Origin: Armatimonadota bacterium
Lineage (GTDB): Bacteria; Armatimonadota; UBA5829
Direction: 5' to 3'
DNA: 64,000 nt
NCBI GenBank assembly: GCA_039679645.1
Contig: JBDKUO010000069.1
Location: 1-64,000, forward strand
The notes under the pieces were generated by a model that did not search any database, was not told where the DNA came from, and saw nothing but the letters and a program-made list of their open reading frames with translations. The translations under genes and the position numbers were made by a program. Below are positions 5,549 to 35,777 of the stretch, piece after piece; the stretch's first letter is position 1; each line of letters begins with the position of its first letter.

Positions 5549-6022
5549 ATGGATATCGGTGATACAGTCTTACACCCTAGATATGGCGTAGGAACCATAG
5601 ACGCCATCGAACGTCGCGAGCAGGACGGTGAATGCCGCGAGTACTACGTGATCCCCAAGCCATCTATATGCTCCACTATTTTCGTCCCTGTCGATTCTGC
5701 GGATGAACTCGGACTTCGTCCGGTTTCAACTCCGGACAAGCTCGAAGAGGCTCTTCACATTCTCTCGGGTGATGAAGATGTGCCCAAAAGTGACGGCCTG
5801 CGGAATCTTACCTGGGGTGATCCTCTTGCTCTTGCGGGCGCAATCCGCCGGGGGGTCACAGAGCCGAAATCTCGTTACCCAAAAGTCAGCGAACAGCACC
5901 AGCTCAAGAGAGCAAAGAAGCTGCTTGCCGAAGAGGTGTCGGTGGTCCTTGGTATGACGGAAGAGAGCGTGATTGCAATAATAGACGATCCTTCCGTGCA
6001 CCCGGTGGGTGCTGCCCACTAA
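5549..6022 (+). CDS. carD: CarD/CdnL-type transcription regulator
   Basis: 157 residues. The N-terminus (GDTVLHPRYGVGTIDAIERR) is the Tudor-like RNA-polymerase-interacting domain seen in CarD, CdnL and the TRCF RID. The rest is predicted helical (LEEALHILSG, QHQLKRAKKLLAEEVSVVLG), as in CarD family C-terminal domains that contact promoter DNA at the -10 edge. CarD proteins stabilise the open complex of housekeeping promoters. GAAAGGGG lies upstream of the ATG. The TAA stop is the first codon inside a 99-bp dispersed repeat (see 6018-6116), so the last residues and the 3' UTR are defined by that element. Confidence 0.8.
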   Translation: MDIGDTVLHPRYGVGTIDAIERREQDGECREYYVIPKPSICSTIFVPVDSADELGLRPVSTPDKLEEALHILSGDEDVPKSDGLRNLTWGDPLALAGAIRRGVTEPKSRYPKVSEQHQLKRAKKLLAEEVSVVLGMTEESVIAIIDDPSVHPVGAAH

Positions 6023-6116
6023 GCAATTTACGCTTAGTAAATTGCACGGTTGCTTGTGGTTTTAGTGATGAAAAAACTATAGCGTTGTGCAAGCGACATA
6101 CCGTGAATTACTTAGT
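6018..6116 (+). repeat. 99-bp dispersed element, copy 1, providing the carD stop codon
   Basis: This stretch matches, with scattered substitutions, the reverse complement of 33656-33754; both copies are exactly 99 bp. Its ends form imperfect inverted repeats (ACTAAGCAATTTACG against ACTAAGTAATTCACG). The first segment folds as GCAATTTAC-GCTTA-GTAAATTGC directly after the stop codon. The TAA of carD is bases 3-5 of the element. No target duplication is visible. The hairpin has no strong T-run, so it is not a textbook terminator. Confidence 0.8.
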
Positions 6117-24948: not shown

Positions 24949-27900
24949 CTACTCCAACTTAGGCTTCGGCGGCATGTCAAGCATATCATCATTCATAAGC
25001 TCCGTAGACGGCGTTGCCGATCTAAGTGAGCTTACGGATGACGTAGAAGACTCACCATTATAACTTGTATTCGGATCAACGATCAATGTGCAGTTTACAA
25101 AAGCCTTTATCCAGTAACCATACCAGGCTTTGAGCACATGCTCAGCGCCGCTTGTGCCGGCTTGGACCAAGACATAATCGTATGCAGATGGATCCCAACG
25201 CCAGGCGTAATTTCTGATCCAACCTGCAGCGGCTGCTTGATCAAGAGTCTTCTCAGCATTAAGATACTTGACATGGAGCTCGCTGAAGGGAATTCCAACG
25301 TCCACTTTCGGCGTTATGTCATTGCCGGATGAGTCTTTCTTCCAATTGAAGAAGATATTGCCGAATTGGTTCCATCCAGCCTTCAATGAAATATTGCACG
25401 GAACCAGCTCAGTCTCACCAGTTGTTGAGTTGACCTGAGTATTATAAGCCTGGGCAAAAACCTTGATCAACCGGTATTTCCTGCTGAAATCCAAGCCATC
25501 GCTATTGTCGGCCATCAGTAAACCGCTTTCCGCGTCCTGACTGCTGATGGACTCCTTAGCATAACTTGACTTAGGCTTGATCCATATGGCTTCACCCGGC
25601 GCAAGGCCAGGGAACGTTGTCGAACCGCCAAACCGATAATATGACCCCAATGCCGGATACCATCTAACAAGCTGCATCAGTGATGCGTTGTCATAACCAA
25701 ATATCTTGCCGGGATCGCTGCTGCCGATGATCATAGGCGGAGTTATCATATCCACCACAGGAGTGTCGGCTGCGGAATCGTCAGGGTTTGACGGATCCTT
25801 TATGGCGATGGTCCTCATCGGTCCACCAACACTGACGCTGAAATAATCGTTCACTCCATCGATGACGTCATCCGTTTCAACCTTATTCCAGCTCGACCCG
25901 CCGTCCCAGGAGGCGTTCAAATTCCATACCCCGCTGGCGCTGAGAGTAAGATTCTCACCTGTCACCAACGATGAATCAATACCACTGGGATAAGTGGGAA
26001 CACTTAGTTCACCAATCCAATAGGTGGAATCTTTGTCGGTAATCGTGACGCTTCCGACTAGAGAGACCGCTGCACCAGTAGGCTTTGTAACTTGAATCGT
26101 TACATTATTGATTGTGTCAGGCTTGCCGGTCAGAGTATTAATCGGGAACAGCATATGCCCCACAATCAACACATTTTGTCCGACAGCCGCGCTTGTTATC
26201 CCGCCGGCAGCATCGGGATCAGCCGCAGAAGCATTGACAAATCTTAGGTTCTCAAAAGACGGAACCAGAAGCACCGGTCCAACCTTCGATGCCGGCGTGG
26301 AAGCACTGTCTGTGCCGTCGGATGCCTGCACCGTATATGTATGACTGCCGATCCCCAACTTCGTTCCGACAACCGATGCCTGATACTCAACTCCGCCGGT
26401 GGCAGTATAATCAGGCGCTGTCGTAGTTGTTGAAGGTGTCCGGGCCATTGCAAATGTCTGTGAAGTAGTTAGACCTTTGTCAACAACAAGTGTAAGGCCT
26501 TCGGACTTCGATGTGCCGGAGCCAAATACCGGAGGGTCATTGTCGGCGTCGCGATAATTCGCTTTATAGACGAATGTCTGGCTTGTCTTGCCCGCAGTCG
26601 GGCTCACGGAAAAGCTGACAATTGAAGGCGCATTGTTGTAATCACGTACAACTAAACCTCCATTGTAAGTAACCGGATCGGCATACTGATATCCATCGTT
26701 CGCTTCAAACGTCACATTATATGTTCCGGGAGAAAGATATGTTCCAACAGGAAGACTGGCCGTGGAGCCGGTGAACACAGCTCCATTTGCATAAACCGGA
26801 CTGGTCTCTTTTGGAGACAGTGAAATAGTATATGTCGCAGCCGTTGATACATTTGTCAGCTTGACACTTACTCTCGGAGTAAGCGCACCCGCACCGGAGC
26901 CGTCAAGATCCTTGTATGTCACATTGAACTTGAATGTCGTCGCCTGCTGCCCGGAAGTCGGATCTATCAATGCACCCGAAAGTACCGGTTTGCAGTTCAC
27001 TGTAATAGATTTGTCATCCGACGAGTTTGCCGGATATCTTACCTTGTGGTCCGGATCGTAACCATCAGAGGCAATGAAATGATATTTCGTGCTGCCTTCC
27101 GGCAAATCGTCCGTCGTGACCTTGAACTGCACCGGAGTTTTATAGCTCGTTGGAACCGTCACAGGCTCCATTGCCAAGCCGCTTGCATCGTCGTTAAACA
27201 CAAGCTGAATATACCCGGTGACACCGTCATGGTAAGTCGGCGGATCGTTATCCGCATCGGAATATTTGACCATGAATGTCAGGTTGTCTCCAGGAAGAAA
27301 CGCAGATGTACTATCATAACTCTTATAATACGTTATATACACAGGCGGCTGTACACCTGCCTTTGGAGTGTACTCGATATACACCGACCTGGTTCCAATC
27401 GGAAGCGCCTTATCAAGTGTCAAGGTAGTCGCACCATCCACAGGAACACCAGTGAAGTAGTTTGTGCCGGTCAAGTCGGCATTATCGTAGACGCCTGCAA
27501 TGTTGTCAATCGAGCTTATTGAGTCGGGTGTGACAACCGTCAGCGATGAACCTACGGTTCCCAATTGAACCAATTCGGAAGGCACGCTGCCCAATGCAGG
27601 CGAGAGAGCTATTTCATTACTCGATGTCGGGTTGAACGTCTGAGTAGTGTCATAGTAGTTCGTATCCGAGTCAGTTGGATTTGCATTCCAGTAGACACCC
27701 AGCACTTTCTGGTTGTTCTGCACTTCCTGCAATGACCAATTGCCCATCGACGAATAGTCAAGCTTGATTTTGCTTGAAGACTCGACTGTTGCGGCCTTGA
27801 TATTCACACCGTATAAGAGTTCCGCACTGGTAAGCTCGGGAGCAACATTGCCGGTTGGCGCCGCACTGGTCACTGTAGGACCTGTTGCGGGTGTCCCATC

Positions 27901-30900
27901 AGTTGGGAACTGCGCCTTGGCTGAATAAGGCACCCAGGCCTTGCCGGCAGCCGTTTCTTCATCTATCAGCCACTGCGGCTTATCGACCCTGCTGCGCGCC
28001 GTAAACCGATAGGCATGACCCCCGATACCCAGCTTTGGTACCGTTAGCTGATAAAGAGTGCCGGACGAATATGCATTAGTGTCCTGTCTTATCATCAGCA
28101 GGCCGTTTATCGTAAATGTTGAATCCTTCTGAAGACCATCGCCGCCCTTGTCCCTGTCGCCGAGATTGTCGGTTGCAACAGTGAGCGTATTGGCCGTATT
28201 GCCTGAAATCAGATATACTCTGTATTTCAATGTGTCGCTGGTGATCTGCATAAGTTTACCTGCGAACACATTGTCCTTCCAACTGACGGGAGTACCGTCT
28301 ATGTTAGTGGCCACTATTGTGCGCATCTTATTGGAATCCAATGAGTCCGCTGCCAGGTCTGAAACCTTACCCAGCACTAAAGTATCTTTGCCGTCACCAT
28401 CCACCCACAACCGCGGAGAACCTGATACGTCCTGGCCGATATAGGCGCCGCTGCCGTTGACGTCTGTAGTCGAATCGAAGAAATACGGCACATCATTATC
28501 GGCATCCTGATATTTAACAGCAAATGTCACTGTTGTGTTCGTCGAAATCGTTGTGTCCTTGCCCGGGGTGGCGCTGCCGTCCGAAAGTGTGGGCATGGTG
28601 TTGATATACGGCCCATCGAGATTAATATACGACGGAACACTAGGATCGGTAGGTCTATTACCAAGACCGTTTTCGGTATAATAGTCATATATTGCAACAT
28701 CGGACCCATCACACGCTTCGAACCGATACTTATGGCCCTTCGGTCCAAGATCACTTGCAGTAGCAGTATATGTATAGACCGCACCATCTCTATAAGGCGG
28801 AGTGCCCGTGCCTTCATATGACATCTCATGTGCTGCGTTATCTATATACACGCGCACATAAGAAGGAGCCTGGCCATGCGCTCCATCGGTATCCTTATAT
28901 GTAACCTTATACACGAATTGCTGGGTTGCCGACTCGGATGAAATCGGTGAGACACTCCCATCATCAAGTGTCGGACGGGTATTTTCCTTCACCGTATCCG
29001 GCATCTTTGTGCCGAAAAGATAGGTAGCGCTTACCGTGCCCGCAGGCTCACTGCCCGGAAGGAACTCTATGATCCGATTCCAGCGGTCTATCTGATAATC
29101 GCCTAACTGGTAATAACGCGCCCACATCGCATTGGTGCCGGAAGGTGCAAAATATGTAAGCTCCAGGTGCGACGGGTTGTTAACGCTTGTCGATCTGAAC
29201 GGCTCAAAATAGCTGCTGCTGTCGGCGGCGTAAGTCCAAACACCTAATACTCCCGCAGTCGGATCACCGTCATTATCAATGCCGTCATTTCCTTTGATAT
29301 GGACCTTATTACCGCCTGCATCCTGCTCTTGCCATCCATCGGGTGAGAAATGCGTCGTGCCCTGGGTCCAGTTGTACACGTCATTTATTTCACCCGGATT
29401 GTCAACAATCAACTCTCTCTTTTGAGCTGCCCCTTTGGTTGTATGCGTAAACCGAGTGTCGGAATACTTTATGAACACCGTCTGCCCGGCAGTCGGAAGG
29501 GTATCGGTAAGCCATATTAGTGAGTCGCCTGTATTGAACAGTGTACGGGTGTAGTAAATATATACTTTGGACCCAAGAGGCTGCGGCATGCTCTCGGGAA
29601 GTTTGATCTTGCCGTTCTTTTCAAGTGTGAGACCGGAATTGGCAATCAGATACATGTTGCCGAGACTGTCAGTTCCATAGACAGCAGTAACGCTCTTTAT
29701 CAATCTGGGAGAGTCCGGTATTACCGTAATGCCGGTCCTGGCAACCTGATCGTATACCTCCGATGGGTCTATTGTTCCCACCATAGCTTTATCAACACTG
29801 TTCGGAACAGGTATAGACGCTGTCGGATCATAATATGAAGCGCTTGGATCGTTGACGTCTTTCAGTGTAGTATATACACCCTCGACACTGGCAATAACTG
29901 AAGGATCTTCAGGCTTCACGTGTATAGTCGACGCCTTTCCATCGGAGTTGACGGCGGTTCCCATCATAATGGAGTAGCGTTCATCTCCGTCAGCCTTTCT
30001 TTGCCAACCGTTCTTCATTTCATCAACAAGCTTAAGGCTGTCATTATCATATACCTGAGCATCTGAAATAAGTGTTGCCGAGCTGGATGTACCCTGCAGC
30101 AGAGGACCGACTACAGGAGCCTCAGGCACATATTTCAACCATACTGATGTCGGCTTTTCCGTGAAGTTCCTTGTCAGAATAACCGTGTCATCACCGGTTT
30201 TATAAACCGGACCCGCCTGGCTCGGTTCATAATAGTTTTGGCCGGTAAGATCCTCTGTGAGGTATACGCCCTGCAAATCGAGTATATTATCGGGATCACT
30301 GGGTCTGACTCGAGCTAAAGGATACACAGAATCAGCAGTCCCTTTTTGCGCGATCACAGGCTCGAACGCATAGCGCAGACTACCCTTAGGTGTCAGCTTT
30401 TCTCCTTCAATGCAGCTTGCGGCATTGGACCGGAGCGCGGCATTAGAAGAAGACCTGTATGTAGCCCATTCATAACCGTCCTGGAAAAGGAATGCATAGT
30501 AGTACTGCTTTTCCTGGTCATACTCATTTTGGATACCATTGAGCCTGGTCTGATAATAGAACAGCACTCCATCATTATAGGTTGTATCGCCGGTATCACT
30601 TTGAAGCATGTCGTGGCCTTCATCCCAAAGGACTGTTTTTCCATCAGGTTGAAGCAGACCAATAAAGACCTTTTTAACGGCTGGCGGGTCGTTGTCCAAG
30701 TCGGCATAGGTCGCGCTGAATGTCCACTTTGTCGCTCCGTTGCTTGTTCCATCTGCAGATTCGACACTGCCGCTATATAGAGTCGGAGCGTTATTATCCG
30801 TTACCGTGAGGTTGGACATCCAACTCGTCGTGACCGTTTGACCTTCCAAGGTGTCATCAGTTCCAACCTGGCGGCCCCAGTCGTCTACAAACTGGAACTT

Positions 30901-33585
30901 ATAGCTGCGTGTACCCTTCTCAAGTTCGGAGCTGGACATATTATAATAGTAGTAAACGCCCTCTTTGTATTTTGCAGAGTTGTCCGCAGACGAACTAAAG
31001 ACTACCTCGGGCAGCATATTACATACTCTTTGTGTGCCCTTGGAGTCAGTTTGAATAATCAGTCTGGCTGCATATGGCCTCTGCCCGTCAGGGTCCGAAT
31101 ATTTGACCCGGAACTTGAACATCTGACCCCGCTTGCCGCTTGTCGGTGAAACAGAATCGCTGCCTACAGTCAACACAGGAGCATTATTCACATATGGACC
31201 CGGCACAAAGTCATTGTTGTCGTAGTCCGGATTTAAGATTTTCTGACCCGCATTATTGGGATCATCGATAAAGTAATCATCCGATTTGTTTGCGGTTGGT
31301 ACCCACCAGTCATCCCATGTCCTACCAAGATAATCATAATGATCAGGGCGCCGAGGCCAAACAATTTTTTGACTTCCATCACTTGCTTCAAAGAGATAGT
31401 GATAAGGGCCGGGTGTGGTAAAGTTCTTTGTCGCTATATACCATACACCATCGGTATAGTCGAAATCCGACGGGTCTTCTTTCTCCATCGTAATACTCAT
31501 CGGATAACTGCTGCTTCCAAGGAGATAAGCATCAGTCGAAAGAGAGCCGCGGCTGCTTGTATTGCCGATCAAAACTCGCACATACATCGGCCCCTTGCCG
31601 TCTTTCGACTTATACATGATACGAAAAGTGCATTGGGAACTGGTAGTCGCGCCGGCTGTCTCCGCACGGCGCGCAGTGATATCTCTACTATATGATGTGT
31701 CCTTATATGTTCCAGGCATAAGTGGGTTCATTGCGCGCTTAAATGAACCGTCCATAAGCAGGGTGCCGTAGTAGCGCCCGCCGCCGTATTTTGTTAAATC
31801 ACTGTAGCCGACAATATCGTCATCCCAGAGCGGGACAGTCAGCGCTCCTCCGACAACCGGATGCTGAGTAGAAGGATACTCATAAGTTGAGCCGAATTTG
31901 CCGGGGACAAATACAGGGCGATCAACAAAAATCGTCGAGTCGAACGCATACCTGTTGTCCGTGCTGTAACTGCGATGCGCAGGGCGGCTTATGTCCGAAT
32001 TGCCCGTTACAGCACGCGCATTCATAGGATCCAAGGCATTGTTGTTTGCATGACCCGGAATAGAGGTAAAATCTGGAGGACAGGAATATGTCAACCCATG
32101 ATCATTGCGCCCCCAGGGAATATAGCCCCAGAGAGAATCGGTCGCATCGGATGGGACTTTAGCCCAGTCTATTGCGCTGCAGACAGTGTTGAGTTGTGTC
32201 GTATGTCTATAATCCGTATAGCCGATCGGTATGTTCCATATATAACCCGGATTAGGTGTTACACCCCACTCCGCAGGGTCCGGCTGCATTTCCAGTACAA
32301 AGTTAGGCACATCGGGGGTGTGATTCAGCGTATCCAAATCAGGCTCATTCCAAGTATACCTAAGCCAGTCGTCACTGCACGCAAAGAAATAGTTAAAAGT
32401 GCCTACAGGCAGCGCATTGTATGCCCAGCAGGTATAGGCAGGGAAATATTTATAGTTATATTCATATAAAAACGGCTCCGCCATACCGTCATTGGGCTGC
32501 AAACGAGCCATAAATACAACGCCGTCGCTATAACTCTGCGCGGTCCAGGCTGCGTTATGCTCTATGCCAGTCTCCGGCATCATCGGTATGAGGCGGTAGT
32601 CGCCTATCCCAAAGACATCGAGATAGAGCGCGACTCCGTAATCGGCGACTTCCATATAATTGTCAGGTGAATAATTGTTGCTGTGCCACCACGGCATAGG
32701 CGGCAGGCCGTCTCTATTGCGGTATTTGACCCGAAAGACATAGTCATGGCTTGCGGAACCATCATCGCCGGTAACTCCACTGCCGTCATTGCTCGGCTCG
32801 ACAGTAAGCGGATCAGGATCATCAGCGCCACCCGCGCTCAAAAAATCACGGTCTCCCTGGCATCCCGAGTAGTCGATCATCTCGGGAACTAGTTGTCCGG
32901 CAGAGTTGTATTGGTAATTCGGTCGGCTGTCGCTGATGGTGACATCCACAGAATCCTCTGTACGTGTATCTTTCCAGTTCCCATCTTTGTCGCAATACCA
33001 CATAAACGCTGTTACTTTCCAGGTACGTGCGGGACCATTACCCCAGGAAATCAGTGTGGGAGCCTCCCACATTGGAGCGAGACTACTATATAGATATTGA
33101 GAATTTTCATTGTAAACAGGCCGATAATAAGCATCCCAAAGCAGATTGTTATGATCAGAATAAGTGGGATACCAGGAAGATGGTTTGGTTACATCAGGAC
33201 TCGTTAAACAGATATCCGGATTCTGGTAGGGACTCGACATGTTCAATCCGGAACTCACGGTGACCACATAACGCGCGCCCGTGCCGTCGGCTGGAGCATG
33301 GTCATAGTAATACATTGGAATGCCGCCGAGAAGCGAATTCGCATATCCGATGCCGGTCAACACAACAAGACCGGGTATATCCGCTTTCTGATATTTTACC
33401 GCGTTAGGATAAGTGCCACCAGGATCTTTCCACGTGGCTATAAACGTATATACAGAATTGGACGTGGCATGCACCGGGGTCACCTTCAGCGAAAGGGACT
33501 GCGCGCCGACATTTGAAAGCGCCAACAACCCAAATGCGGCTATTATTATCATTAGTGCGAAAGCACGTTTCCAAATATTACTCAT
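24949..33585 (-). CDS. Giant exported repeat protein with a shared C-terminal domain
   Basis: 2878 residues from ATG 33585, chosen because GGAAGGAAAA precedes it; the longer frame starts at a TTG overlapping that site. A signal peptide (FALMIIIAAFGLLALSNVGA) leads an ectodomain with two repeat families. Family 1, about 110 residues, has the core SVSPTxGxxxxxFxFxVxYxD followed by xDxDPP-like acidic turns (near residues 270, 800, 930, 1535, 1660, 2090, 2195, 2315). Family 2, about 70 residues, carries GVYxxxDLTGxNYY and ends VYIEYTP-like (near 1100, 1260, 1990, 2060). The last 230 residues are a tandem beta-module with PGEAIWIKP and then GWNQFGNIF and GYWIKAF, shared with the next two genes upstream. 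Role: large surface or matrix protein; function unknown. Confidence 0.75.
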   Translation of the reverse strand: MSNIWKRAFALMIIIAAFGLLALSNVGAQSLSLKVTPVHATSNSVYTFIATWKDPGGTYPNAVKYQKADIPGLVVLTGIGYANSLLGGIPMYYYDHAPADGTGARYVVTVSSGLNMSSPYQNPDICLTSPDVTKPSSWYPTYSDHNNLLWDAYYRPVYNENSQYLYSSLAPMWEAPTLISWGNGPARTWKVTAFMWYCDKDGNWKDTRTEDSVDVTISDSRPNYQYNSAGQLVPEMIDYSGCQGDRDFLSAGGADDPDPLTVEPSNDGSGVTGDDGSASHDYVFRVKYRNRDGLPPMPWWHSNNYSPDNYMEVADYGVALYLDVFGIGDYRLIPMMPETGIEHNAAWTAQSYSDGVVFMARLQPNDGMAEPFLYEYNYKYFPAYTCWAYNALPVGTFNYFFACSDDWLRYTWNEPDLDTLNHTPDVPNFVLEMQPDPAEWGVTPNPGYIWNIPIGYTDYRHTTQLNTVCSAIDWAKVPSDATDSLWGYIPWGRNDHGLTYSCPPDFTSIPGHANNNALDPMNARAVTGNSDISRPAHRSYSTDNRYAFDSTIFVDRPVFVPGKFGSTYEYPSTQHPVVGGALTVPLWDDDIVGYSDLTKYGGGRYYGTLLMDGSFKRAMNPLMPGTYKDTSYSRDITARRAETAGATTSSQCTFRIMYKSKDGKGPMYVRVLIGNTSSRGSLSTDAYLLGSSSYPMSITMEKEDPSDFDYTDGVWYIATKNFTTPGPYHYLFEASDGSQKIVWPRRPDHYDYLGRTWDDWWVPTANKSDDYFIDDPNNAGQKILNPDYDNNDFVPGPYVNNAPVLTVGSDSVSPTSGKRGQMFKFRVKYSDPDGQRPYAARLIIQTDSKGTQRVCNMLPEVVFSSSADNSAKYKEGVYYYYNMSSSELEKGTRSYKFQFVDDWGRQVGTDDTLEGQTVTTSWMSNLTVTDNNAPTLYSGSVESADGTSNGATKWTFSATYADLDNDPPAVKKVFIGLLQPDGKTVLWDEGHDMLQSDTGDTTYNDGVLFYYQTRLNGIQNEYDQEKQYYYAFLFQDGYEWATYRSSSNAALRSNAASCIEGEKLTPKGSLRYAFEPVIAQKGTADSVYPLARVRPSDPDNILDLQGVYLTEDLTGQNYYEPSQAGPVYKTGDDTVILTRNFTEKPTSVWLKYVPEAPVVGPLLQGTSSSATLISDAQVYDNDSLKLVDEMKNGWQRKADGDERYSIMMGTAVNSDGKASTIHVKPEDPSVIASVEGVYTTLKDVNDPSASYYDPTASIPVPNSVDKAMVGTIDPSEVYDQVARTGITVIPDSPRLIKSVTAVYGTDSLGNMYLIANSGLTLEKNGKIKLPESMPQPLGSKVYIYYTRTLFNTGDSLIWLTDTLPTAGQTVFIKYSDTRFTHTTKGAAQKRELIVDNPGEINDVYNWTQGTTHFSPDGWQEQDAGGNKVHIKGNDGIDNDGDPTAGVLGVWTYAADSSSYFEPFRSTSVNNPSHLELTYFAPSGTNAMWARYYQLGDYQIDRWNRIIEFLPGSEPAGTVSATYLFGTKMPDTVKENTRPTLDDGSVSPISSESATQQFVYKVTYKDTDGAHGQAPSYVRVYIDNAAHEMSYEGTGTPPYRDGAVYTYTATASDLGPKGHKYRFEACDGSDVAIYDYYTENGLGNRPTDPSVPSYINLDGPYINTMPTLSDGSATPGKDTTISTNTTVTFAVKYQDADNDVPYFFDSTTDVNGSGAYIGQDVSGSPRLWVDGDGKDTLVLGKVSDLAADSLDSNKMRTIVATNIDGTPVSWKDNVFAGKLMQITSDTLKYRVYLISGNTANTLTVATDNLGDRDKGGDGLQKDSTFTINGLLMIRQDTNAYSSGTLYQLTVPKLGIGGHAYRFTARSRVDKPQWLIDEETAAGKAWVPYSAKAQFPTDGTPATGPTVTSAAPTGNVAPELTSAELLYGVNIKAATVESSSKIKLDYSSMGNWSLQEVQNNQKVLGVYWNANPTDSDTNYYDTTQTFNPTSSNEIALSPALGSVPSELVQLGTVGSSLTVVTPDSISSIDNIAGVYDNADLTGTNYFTGVPVDGATTLTLDKALPIGTRSVYIEYTPKAGVQPPVYITYYKSYDSTSAFLPGDNLTFMVKYSDADNDPPTYHDGVTGYIQLVFNDDASGLAMEPVTVPTSYKTPVQFKVTTDDLPEGSTKYHFIASDGYDPDHKVRYPANSSDDKSITVNCKPVLSGALIDPTSGQQATTFKFNVTYKDLDGSGAGALTPRVSVKLTNVSTAATYTISLSPKETSPVYANGAVFTGSTASLPVGTYLSPGTYNVTFEANDGYQYADPVTYNGGLVVRDYNNAPSIVSFSVSPTAGKTSQTFVYKANYRDADNDPPVFGSGTSKSEGLTLVVDKGLTTSQTFAMARTPSTTTTAPDYTATGGVEYQASVVGTKLGIGSHTYTVQASDGTDSASTPASKVGPVLLVPSFENLRFVNASAADPDAAGGITSAAVGQNVLIVGHMLFPINTLTGKPDTINNVTIQVTKPTGAAVSLVGSVTITDKDSTYWIGELSVPTYPSGIDSSLVTGENLTLSASGVWNLNASWDGGSSWNKVETDDVIDGVNDYFSVSVGGPMRTIAIKDPSNPDDSAADTPVVDMITPPMIIGSSDPGKIFGYDNASLMQLVRWYPALGSYYRFGGSTTFPGLAPGEAIWIKPKSSYAKESISSQDAESGLLMADNSDGLDFSRKYRLIKVFAQAYNTQVNSTTGETELVPCNISLKAGWNQFGNIFFNWKKDSSGNDITPKVDVGIPFSELHVKYLNAEKTLDQAAAAGWIRNYAWRWDPSAYDYVLVQAGTSGAEHVLKAWYGYWIKAFVNCTLIVDPNTSYNGESSTSSVSSLRSATPSTELMNDDMLDMPPKPKLE

Positions 33586-33621
33586 CTGCGGTTTTCCTTC
33601 CAAACTCCATCCATCATTTCA

Positions 33622-33655: not shown

Positions 33656-33754
33656 ACTAAGTAATTCACGGTAAGTCGCTTGCATAAAGCTATAATTTTC
33701 ACACCGCTAAGACCACAAGCAATCGTGCAATTTACTATGCGTAAATTGCTTAGT
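33656..33754 (-). repeat. 99-bp dispersed element, copy 2, providing a stop codon
   Basis: Reverse-complement match to 6018-6116, same length. In the sense of the gene at 33750-35777 it begins ACTAAGCAATTTACG and bases 3-5 form that gene's TAA. The hairpin GCAATTTAC-GCATA-GTAAATTGC follows the stop, as in copy 1. Position and orientation relative to the upstream gene are the same in both copies. Confidence 0.8.
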
Positions 33755-35777
33755 ATCCGCCATTCAATGACGTAACACCCGAATCAGGAAATACAGCCGG
33801 TCTAAAGACCAGCGTGACCGGAGTCTTCGCACGGACCCAATACCCCTTCCAAGGCACCAGCATTTCATCATTGGCGCTTAGTGTCTCATAGGAGGATGTG
33901 TCGGGATTCCATCCATATATGGTTTTGCTGATCCATCCCTTTTTAGCTGCGTTCTCAAACGAATAGGTCGTATTTGTCGTCTTGTTGTATACCATTAACT
34001 GCCCGATATACACTGGATAGACGAATGGATTGCCGACCATGTTCCAGCCCGACGCAAGCTCTATGTCCTGCTCTTTGTACTGCTTGCCGTAATATTCACC
34101 AACAATGGCTGCGTCATCGGCAAGCGTGTATGTCTTCCGACCACCTTTACCCAAGCTGTAGACATTCACCCAGAATGCCTTGCCGGGCTCCAGTCGAGAC
34201 AGGGTTACATACTCCTTCGCATCGATATCATAACTTACAGCCTTGTATCCAGACGTCATCGCGAAGGCATGCTCGAATGTTGGATAATTAAACTCAAACG
34301 GAACACTGACCATCTGATATCCATAGCGGAGCACAGTCCTCTTTGCAGCAGGAACCATAATCGTATGAGTGACTGTCTGACTCCAGCCGTTCTTATCACT
34401 AAAAATAACGTAATACTCAAGTTCACCGCAGCTTTCGCCGGTCGGCTTGACTTTCCAAGTCACCGGGCTTGACTCCGAATTTGTCGGCACGTCTCCAATT
34501 TCCTGCTTCGCGGTTGAATCTGAAGTGAGCGCGAGGCCCTTTGGCAGATATAAATACGCAGAGACCTCTTTCAAATTATACGGACCGGAGTCCATAGTAG
34601 TGTTATAAACATACGCGCTGATCGTGAACGGGTCCGGAGTAATATCGACAAGGTTTGTGTCGGGATTGGTACTGTTGAATTTGAGGGACTTCGGTGCTTG
34701 AACAGCCGCGGTCACACTGTCTCGAACAACTTTAGTCCCAGATTTACTTGTCCATTTTTCAGATGCGGCACCAATACCATAATAGGTAACATATGTCCGT
34801 GAGGCCCCCGCAGCGAGAGCCTTTTGCTTCCATTCCATCAGGCAGCAAGGAGCATCCACCGCTTCCAGAGGATCCGGTATATAATCATCCGGCAGCCAGG
34901 TGCTTGTCATTATAAGTCCACCGGGCTCCCATTCGCCCCAAGCAAAATAGTCGGGGATAGTGCAATCCTGCTCACCAAGAGTATATCTGTTCACTCTCGC
35001 AGGATCGTCCACACTTTCGTAAACTTCAACCTTATCGGGCACCTTTGTCCCTGAAAAGAGGGTTCCTGGAAACGAATCGGACACACCGTTGGCACGCGTC
35101 ATTCCTATGCCTGAAATAAACGGATATCCGTGAGAAGAGCCTGTGTTGACTACAGGAATACTAAACATCCCCAAGCCTATGGACTGTGTAGTAGTAGCCT
35201 TGTTGGTAACAGTCAACGCATAACGCACCTGGTCGCGCACAAGACTTATATTGATTTTGAGCGCTACAGGCGTCTTACCTGCTGTCGTCCACTCTCCCTC
35301 GAGATATGGACCGCCGGGTCCGAGTGTGGTGCCGACAATCGGCGCATCATACTTTGTAGGCGTCGTTGACCAGGCGCCGCTGCCGTCCGATCCCGCACCG
35401 ATCATGACAGGCTCATTGTCACCAACCTTGACCTTCCAGTTGCCCAAAGGACCAAACGTGTAAGGCGCCCAAGGAGTCATCTGCACGTTGTCGTCGGCAG
35501 TAGTCTCAGGATCGCCCTTAGCGGACATTACCGAATACCGGCCTGCTACATCATATGTGGTTGAATCTCCGTCTGCCTCGACCAGTGTAACCGTGCCGTC
35601 AATACCCAGGTAAGCTTCGATATAGTCATTTGAAAGCGGCATAACCCAGTAATCATCCGAGAACTTTATCTCGACAATTGTATTATCTGTGTTATCTGCC
35701 CAAGCAAAGGACCACAATCCCATAAAAACCATCAGCACAAACAAGATTACAGAAATCATTGTTCTGGTATTATTCAT
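33750..35777 (-). CDS. Exported protein with a shared C-terminal beta-module
   Basis: 675 residues, not recognised as an enzyme. A signal peptide (MISVILFVLMVFMGLWSFAWA) precedes a beta-rich region (residues 30-330; TPVALKINISLVRDQVRYALTV cut here to the idea of a sandwich). It has few motifs beyond YWVMPLSNDYIEAYLGIDG. Residues 360-470 look Ig/CARDB-like (SAYVYNTTMDSGPYNLKEV). The last 190 residues are the tandem module shared with its neighbours: YQMVSVPFEF and LEPGKAFWVN, then LASGWNMVGNPF, AAKKGWISKT and WKGYWVRAKT. AGGAGAT precedes the ATG. It lies 50 bases after the protease gene and ends in a 99-bp repeat that provides its stop. Confidence 0.65.
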   Translation of the reverse strand: MNNTRTMISVILFVLMVFMGLWSFAWADNTDNTIVEIKFSDDYWVMPLSNDYIEAYLGIDGTVTLVEADGDSTTYDVAGRYSVMSAKGDPETTADDNVQMTPWAPYTFGPLGNWKVKVGDNEPVMIGAGSDGSGAWSTTPTKYDAPIVGTTLGPGGPYLEGEWTTAGKTPVALKINISLVRDQVRYALTVTNKATTTQSIGLGMFSIPVVNTGSSHGYPFISGIGMTRANGVSDSFPGTLFSGTKVPDKVEVYESVDDPARVNRYTLGEQDCTIPDYFAWGEWEPGGLIMTSTWLPDDYIPDPLEAVDAPCCLMEWKQKALAAGASRTYVTYYGIGAASEKWTSKSGTKVVRDSVTAAVQAPKSLKFNSTNPDTNLVDITPDPFTISAYVYNTTMDSGPYNLKEVSAYLYLPKGLALTSDSTAKQEIGDVPTNSESSPVTWKVKPTGESCGELEYYVIFSDKNGWSQTVTHTIMVPAAKRTVLRYGYQMVSVPFEFNYPTFEHAFAMTSGYKAVSYDIDAKEYVTLSRLEPGKAFWVNVYSLGKGGRKTYTLADDAAIVGEYYGKQYKEQDIELASGWNMVGNPFVYPVYIGQLMVYNKTTNTTYSFENAAKKGWISKTIYGWNPDTSSYETLSANDEMLVPWKGYWVRAKTPVTLVFRPAVFPDSGVTSLNGGY

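Follow-up and report, generated by a model that had tools for sequence, protein, structure and literature searches.

The window analyzed here, a 64,000-nucleotide stretch of an Armatimonadota genome, contains two closely similar repeats, at 6018-6116 on the plus strand and at 33656-33754 on the minus strand, which are about 89% identical over 99 aligned columns. The first lies at the end of a carD-like gene and the second at the end of a gene for a 675-aa exported-type protein (Table 1), directly downstream of which a 2884-aa open frame occupies 24949-33603 on the minus strand. In both copies, the in-frame TAA that ends the upstream gene falls within the repeat and a 9-bp hairpin comes next. 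The hairpin sequence, GCAATTTACGCNTAGTAAATTGC, has exactly two matches in the window versus none in 100 dinucleotide shuffles. The terminal inverted repeats of the window copies are imperfect (left, AGCAATTTACG; right, AGTAATTCACG). These observations confirm a preliminary description of the window, which had reported two copies of the same length with most bases in common, the stop codons of both genes inside them, a hairpin right after each stop, and imperfect inverted ends. That description took the element to be 99 bp long. The repeat is real, but its extent must be revised: the element itself is 91 bp, bounded on each side by a TA duplication, and the AC...GT at the outside of the 99-bp unit comes from the target. 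The outer bases are common to the window copies because both targets read ACTAGT; in copies elsewhere in the family, they differ.

Table 1. Features of the two repeat copies and the genes that they end (positions in the window)
Feature	Position	Strand	Remarks
carD-like gene, 157 aa	5549..6022	+	Pfam CarD_TRCF_RID; stop now TAA, presumably formerly TAG
Copy 1, 91-bp core, A-type, in carD stop codon	6022..6112	+	Boundaries set by TA duplication and empty-site comparison
Copy 1, left TA of target duplication	6020..6021		First two bases of the carD stop TAA (6020-6022)
Copy 1, right TA of target duplication	6113..6114		With G at 6115, the displaced original TAG; excised site reads cccacTAgttt
Copy 1, H end, 9-bp hairpin	6023..6045	+	GCAATTTAC/GTAAATTGC
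Copy 1, right terminal inverted repeat	6102..6112	-	AGTAATTCACG on the minus strand
675-aa exported-type gene	33750..35777	-	No Pfam family
Copy 2, 91-bp core, A-type, in stop codon of 675-aa gene	33660..33750	-	
Copy 2, TA duplication, stop-codon side	33751..33752		Gene on minus strand; TAA = 33752..33750
Copy 2, TA duplication, distal side	33658..33659		
Copy 2, H end, 9-bp hairpin	33727..33749	-	

The two copies belong to a multicopy family that is present in the host genome (G000; 3.41 Mb, 69 contigs) and in two sister species, G003 and G004. G000 contains five full relatives and, in addition, copies sharing only the left ~30 bp, which make up a further subfamily (B-type) whose ends are the same but whose middle differs. 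At least 26 matches were found in G003 and at least 40 in G004, and no copies were found in two other congeners (G001 and G002) or in the ten further family members searched. A 14-bp end, CTAAGCAATTTACG, occurs 6 times in G000, 26 times in G003, and 34 times in G004 and is absent elsewhere among 19 genomes of the order; a reversed control pattern gave 0 matches. When all genome contigs were scanned with the pattern, one Armatimonadota MAG (UBA5829) was recovered together with matches in Phascolarctobacterium and Bacilli, which are probably due to chance. Since matches are confined to G000, G003, and G004, the family is lineage restricted and probably young.

Pairing of the ends yielded 76 copies, one of which (L242 in G001), a 45-bp hairpin that probably does not belong to the family, was left out of the site counts, leaving 75 sites. 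The 76 copies are noncoding and range from 34 to 171 bp, most being 95 to 97 bp when the TAs are counted, and the inverted ends across the family read AGCAATTTACG / AGTAA(T/A)T(C/T)ACG. The family has the generic properties of a MITE: a length of less than 300 bp, no coding content, multiple copies, terminal inverted repeats, and mobility, as seen from the target duplication and from presence or absence at orthologous sites.

Several variants accompany the typical copies. On the window's contig, just outside the window, lies a short element with the same ends and another interior (L240, G000:C69:72299), and at L015 (G000:C56:25768-25837), the left 33 bp of the element occur twice in tandem within a single insertion whose target is TTAA. 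Many copies in G003 and G004 carry a palindromic insert of ~34 bp, AAAGAGTCACATTTCCTGCGGAAATCTGACTTAG, nested at the same position of the left hairpin (L080, L091, L094, L095, L115, L116, L118, and L120). Many loci of G004, for example, L076 to L082, contain small palindromes of another family (CCCGCATAATACGGG; CCCGCATTATTCACGAGGAACGTGAATAATGC...), in many cases with CTAG at their flanks. At L189 (G004:C2:327636-328265), one of these palindromes sits in a stop codon that holds a B-type element in the sister species, and at other loci they supplied the CTAG sites where A-type elements landed.

The borders of the copies identify the target. C precedes the left TA in 71 of 76 copies and G follows the right TA in 65 of 76; after the copies were oriented by the hairpin end, the counts were 68/71 and 61/71, respectively, so the flank bias is symmetric. 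Both element ends read TAAG inwards. Two exceptional targets, TTAG (L018) and TTAA (L015), keep the TA and lose the outer bases. Therefore, CTAG is the preferred target and TA is the duplicated part, as read from the sequence, in which an element carrying TA at one end would look identical. A 4-nt duplication of CTAG was ruled out, as the left border reads CTAA and the right border TTAG. The window contains 35 CTAG sites versus the ~250 expected from base composition, a depletion of about 7-fold, and landing sites are therefore restricted.

The C-terminal segments of 19 neighboring genes were searched in the family genomes, and the ends of the orthologues were then read. About 15 of the 18 informative genes have element-free orthologues whose last residue is the same; these have a plain stop, often NNC TAG, with a single TA in CTAG, and some of the flanks can be aligned without a break over the excised site. 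At the 675-aa gene, the window reads GGCGGATAC-TA[91 bp]TA-G, i.e., GGATAC-TA[element]TA-G, and G004, without an element, reads GGATACTAG (GGCGGATACTAG), its orthologue ending ...GGY TAG at the same residue. The L129 site of G003 is empty in both other species (CACTAGGAGG), so the insertion also left the Shine-Dalgarno-like GGAGG of the next gene intact. The empty sites of L014, L106, L111 (from its C-terminal sequence, presumably an NrdR-like protein), and L017 behave in the same way. The preliminary description, in which the element supplied the stop codon, had held that element-free orthologues ending at the same residue would count against it. Such orthologues account for about 15 of the 18 genes, and what the insertion did there was replace a native stop, not create a new end. 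The comparison of carD orthologues that it had proposed gave the same last residue in G004 with a TAA stop and no element; the downstream flank is too diverged for the exact empty site to be read. One open frame, at L099, proved spurious, as its orthologue runs on for ~100 residues beyond the supposed end and is still open where the stretch read finishes.

Some stop codons have received different insertions in different species. In G000 and G003, the stop of the L017 gene holds B-type elements; in G004, its occupant is a different palindrome of 19 bp. The gene at L080 has an A-type copy in G004 and an 18-bp B-type footprint in G000. In that footprint (L172, G000:C62:52343-52993), the stop codon reads TAA followed by the element remnant, a sequence that suggests a lasting TAG-to-TAA change.

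To place the copies relative to genes, each was excised and genes were then called with a simple codon-usage caller; the caller and the choice of loci for holding elements both limit the precision of the resulting counts. In the first calling, the 75 sites comprised 21 in stop codons, 46 intergenic, and 8 coding, and trimming of over-called gene starts reduced the coding sites from 8 to 1 and brought the intergenic sites to ~53. Across the same 507 kb, the CTAG background comprised 118 coding, 87 intergenic, and 8 stop-codon sites. Coding interiors thus hold 1/75 copies versus 118/213 (55%) of CTAG sites generally. The sole copy apparently inside an open frame (L110:1945-2042; 748 aa if excised) may mark a disrupted gene or two adjacent genes. 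Stop codons hold 21/75 copies versus 8/95 noncoding background CTAG sites (odds ratio, 4.3; p=0.0009; the background stop count of 8 is small), and the 4- to 5-fold excess over intergenic CTAG persisted with p values of ~0.001 at three gene-calling settings. Nearly all of the stop insertions are at TAG or TAA codons that fit the TA target, with 17 of 21 in CTAG, and they are split 9:11 between the two element ends, showing that orientation to the gene is random. For copies outside stop codons, the nearest gene boundary was a start for 33 and an end for 13; gene 3' ends as such are therefore not the target, and general 3'-end targeting was rejected. The stop-codon excess is real, since a C followed by a TAG stop makes a CTAG site that can be occupied without harm. 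The preliminary description had proposed insertion targeting the 3' ends of genes, with enrichment at stop codons as the check. Insertion is borne out by the empty orthologous sites and enrichment by the 21 of 75 copies, yet most copies are intergenic, and the target is CTAG rather than 3' ends.

Taken together, these are copies of a multicopy family with inverted ends, a TA duplication, a CTAG target, empty orthologous sites, and unchanged protein ends, and it is highly probable that both window sequences are nonautonomous MITE copies mobilized in trans by an IS630/Tc1-mariner-type transposase. The element inserts at the TA within CTAG and duplicates the TA. Both ends begin with 5'-AG, so TA plus AG gives TAAG at each border. 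Where the CTAG is part of a stop (NNC TAG), the broken TAG becomes an in-frame TAA in either orientation, C-TA-G turning into C-TAA-G at either border because both ends start with AG. The protein is unchanged, and insertions in stop codons would therefore survive. Copies in coding interiors would be purged, and those in stop codons and intergenic DNA would persist. The excess at stop codons thus probably reflects retention by selection, that is, survival rather than targeting. In a further-reaching version, which we regard as rather unlikely, target choice itself would favor NNC-TAG stops as safe sites, the AG ends would have been shaped to rebuild TAA both ways, and decay in place would convert TAG to TAA across the lineage.

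The same excess could arise if, over and above its preference for CTAG, the transposon machinery were actively directed to stop codons or to the 3' ends of genes, whether by transcription, by ribosomes, or by a DNA-binding partner. The 4- to 5-fold overrepresentation fits this explanation, as does the finding of different insertions in the same stop in three species (L017, L190, and L189) and of two in another gene (L080 and L172). However, the copies outside stop codons lie nearer to gene starts than to gene ends, almost every stop insertion fits the TA target, and harmlessness at stops accounts for retention without targeting. Active targeting is accordingly improbable.

Assignment of the moving enzyme to a DDE transposase of the IS630/Tc1-mariner type, which seems likely, follows from the target. 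TA duplication is the hallmark of the IS630-Tc1-mariner group and has been shown in vitro for the IS630 family (PMC2170065), and IS630 prefers the TA in 5'-CTAG-3', as the title of Tenzen and Ohtsubo (1991), cited in PMC2170065, states. Searches of 15 family genomes gave no match to PF13358 (IS630 transposase) and none above the cut-off to NF033545 (IS630), for which only weak HTH-region fragments were seen; apart from those weak fragments, the searches with PF13358, NF033545, PF01609, and PF01797 found no autonomous partner carrying the element ends. The family resembles IS630-derived MITEs in its TA duplication (at CTAG, TTAG, and TTAA targets) and its CTAG preference but not in having a partner IS630 in the host. 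Extinction or gaps in the draft assemblies may explain why the carriers lack an IS630 gene. Because the partner element was not found, "IS630-like" denotes a way of working only, and membership in IS630 is not claimed.

Two other kinds of enzyme were considered. The elements could be MITEs of another DDE family, such as an IS5 type with 4-nt CTAG/YTAA duplications as in MITEPsy1, which targets CTAG or YTAA (PMC3189936), and IS4/IS5-type DDE transposases occur once or twice each in G000 and G004. The CTAA and TTAG borders, with only TA common to both sides, exclude such a duplication, and no PF01609 locus carries the element ends, making this origin doubtful at best. A REPIN or IS200-IS605-like element moved by a Y1 (RAYT) transposase is very unlikely. 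The size and hairpin do resemble those of REPINs, and Y1 transposase genes are present in G000, G003, and G004, one of them ~0.7 kb from a copy (L248). However, IS200/IS605 elements recognize one side of the target only, and here the target is palindromic, with both sides specified after the copies are oriented. Moreover, the ends are similar inverted repeats (CTAAG/CTTAG) and not asymmetric as in IS200/IS605, the GTAG/CTAC-tagged hairpins and linked rayt gene of REPIN/RAYT systems were not seen, none of the other Y1 loci carries the element ends, and G002, the genome richest in Y1 genes, has no element.

The other suggestion of the preliminary description, a selected 3'-UTR RNA module kept at gene ends because its poststop hairpin ends or stabilizes the transcript, is most improbable: although the whole-element fold of copy 1 beats shuffles (z, -3.55) and copies sit directly after stops, either end in either orientation adjoins the stop (9 versus 11), a two-sided change was found in only 1 of 21 consensus pairs (negligible covariation), neither window element has a terminator-like site, Rfam covariance models gave no match in the window at gathering scores, sister-species orthologues lack the element, and most copies are intergenic, often ahead of genes. 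Given the random orientation, negligible covariation, and element-free orthologues, the element is unlikely to have a conserved function as RNA, although individual copies could influence transcripts nearby.

The element is ordinary in kind, and its consequence is an elegant safe landing. It provides a clean example of a transposon that enters a gene's stop codon and leaves the protein unchanged. It also cautions annotators against assuming a regulatory module wherever a repeat "supplies" a stop codon. Over time, insertions of this kind may gradually turn TAG stops into TAA. We found no description of systematic stop-codon rebuilding by such elements in the open-access literature, and for Armatimonadota, a search of the literature yielded no paper on elements of this sort.

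As a MITE, the element is most similar in design to RUP of Streptococcus pneumoniae, a ~107-bp element whose proposed mover is IS630-Spn1 (PMC3049150). According to the passages on RUP in that source, the two have in common a length of ~100 bp, noncoding sequence, imperfect inverted ends, a target duplication, many copies, and no consistent gene function. They differ in sequence and host and in the IS630 partner, which is present in the RUP genome and was not found here; those passages on RUP contain no mention of stop-codon rebuilding. IS630 and ISY100 (IS630-Tc1-mariner; PMC2170065) likewise duplicate a TA target, which for IS630 is preferentially the TA in CTAG as cited there, but they are autonomous, with a transposase gene, whereas the Armatimonadota elements encode nothing. 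MITEPsy1 of Pseudomonas syringae is a 100-bp MITE with similar targets but has a 4-nt duplication and IS5-like (ISPsy2) ends (PMC3189936). The Chunjie MITE of Geobacter uraniireducens, as summarized in PMC10969869, is another bacterial MITE that has numerous partial copies differing in length; it is 178 to 235 bp long and unrelated, and that summary reports no stop-codon location. Finally, the RU-1 repeats of enterobacteria are small mobile repeats found at a gene 3' end, where the stop was lost upon insertion and the protein became longer (PMC2759123); in the family described here, the stop is instead rebuilt at the same codon.
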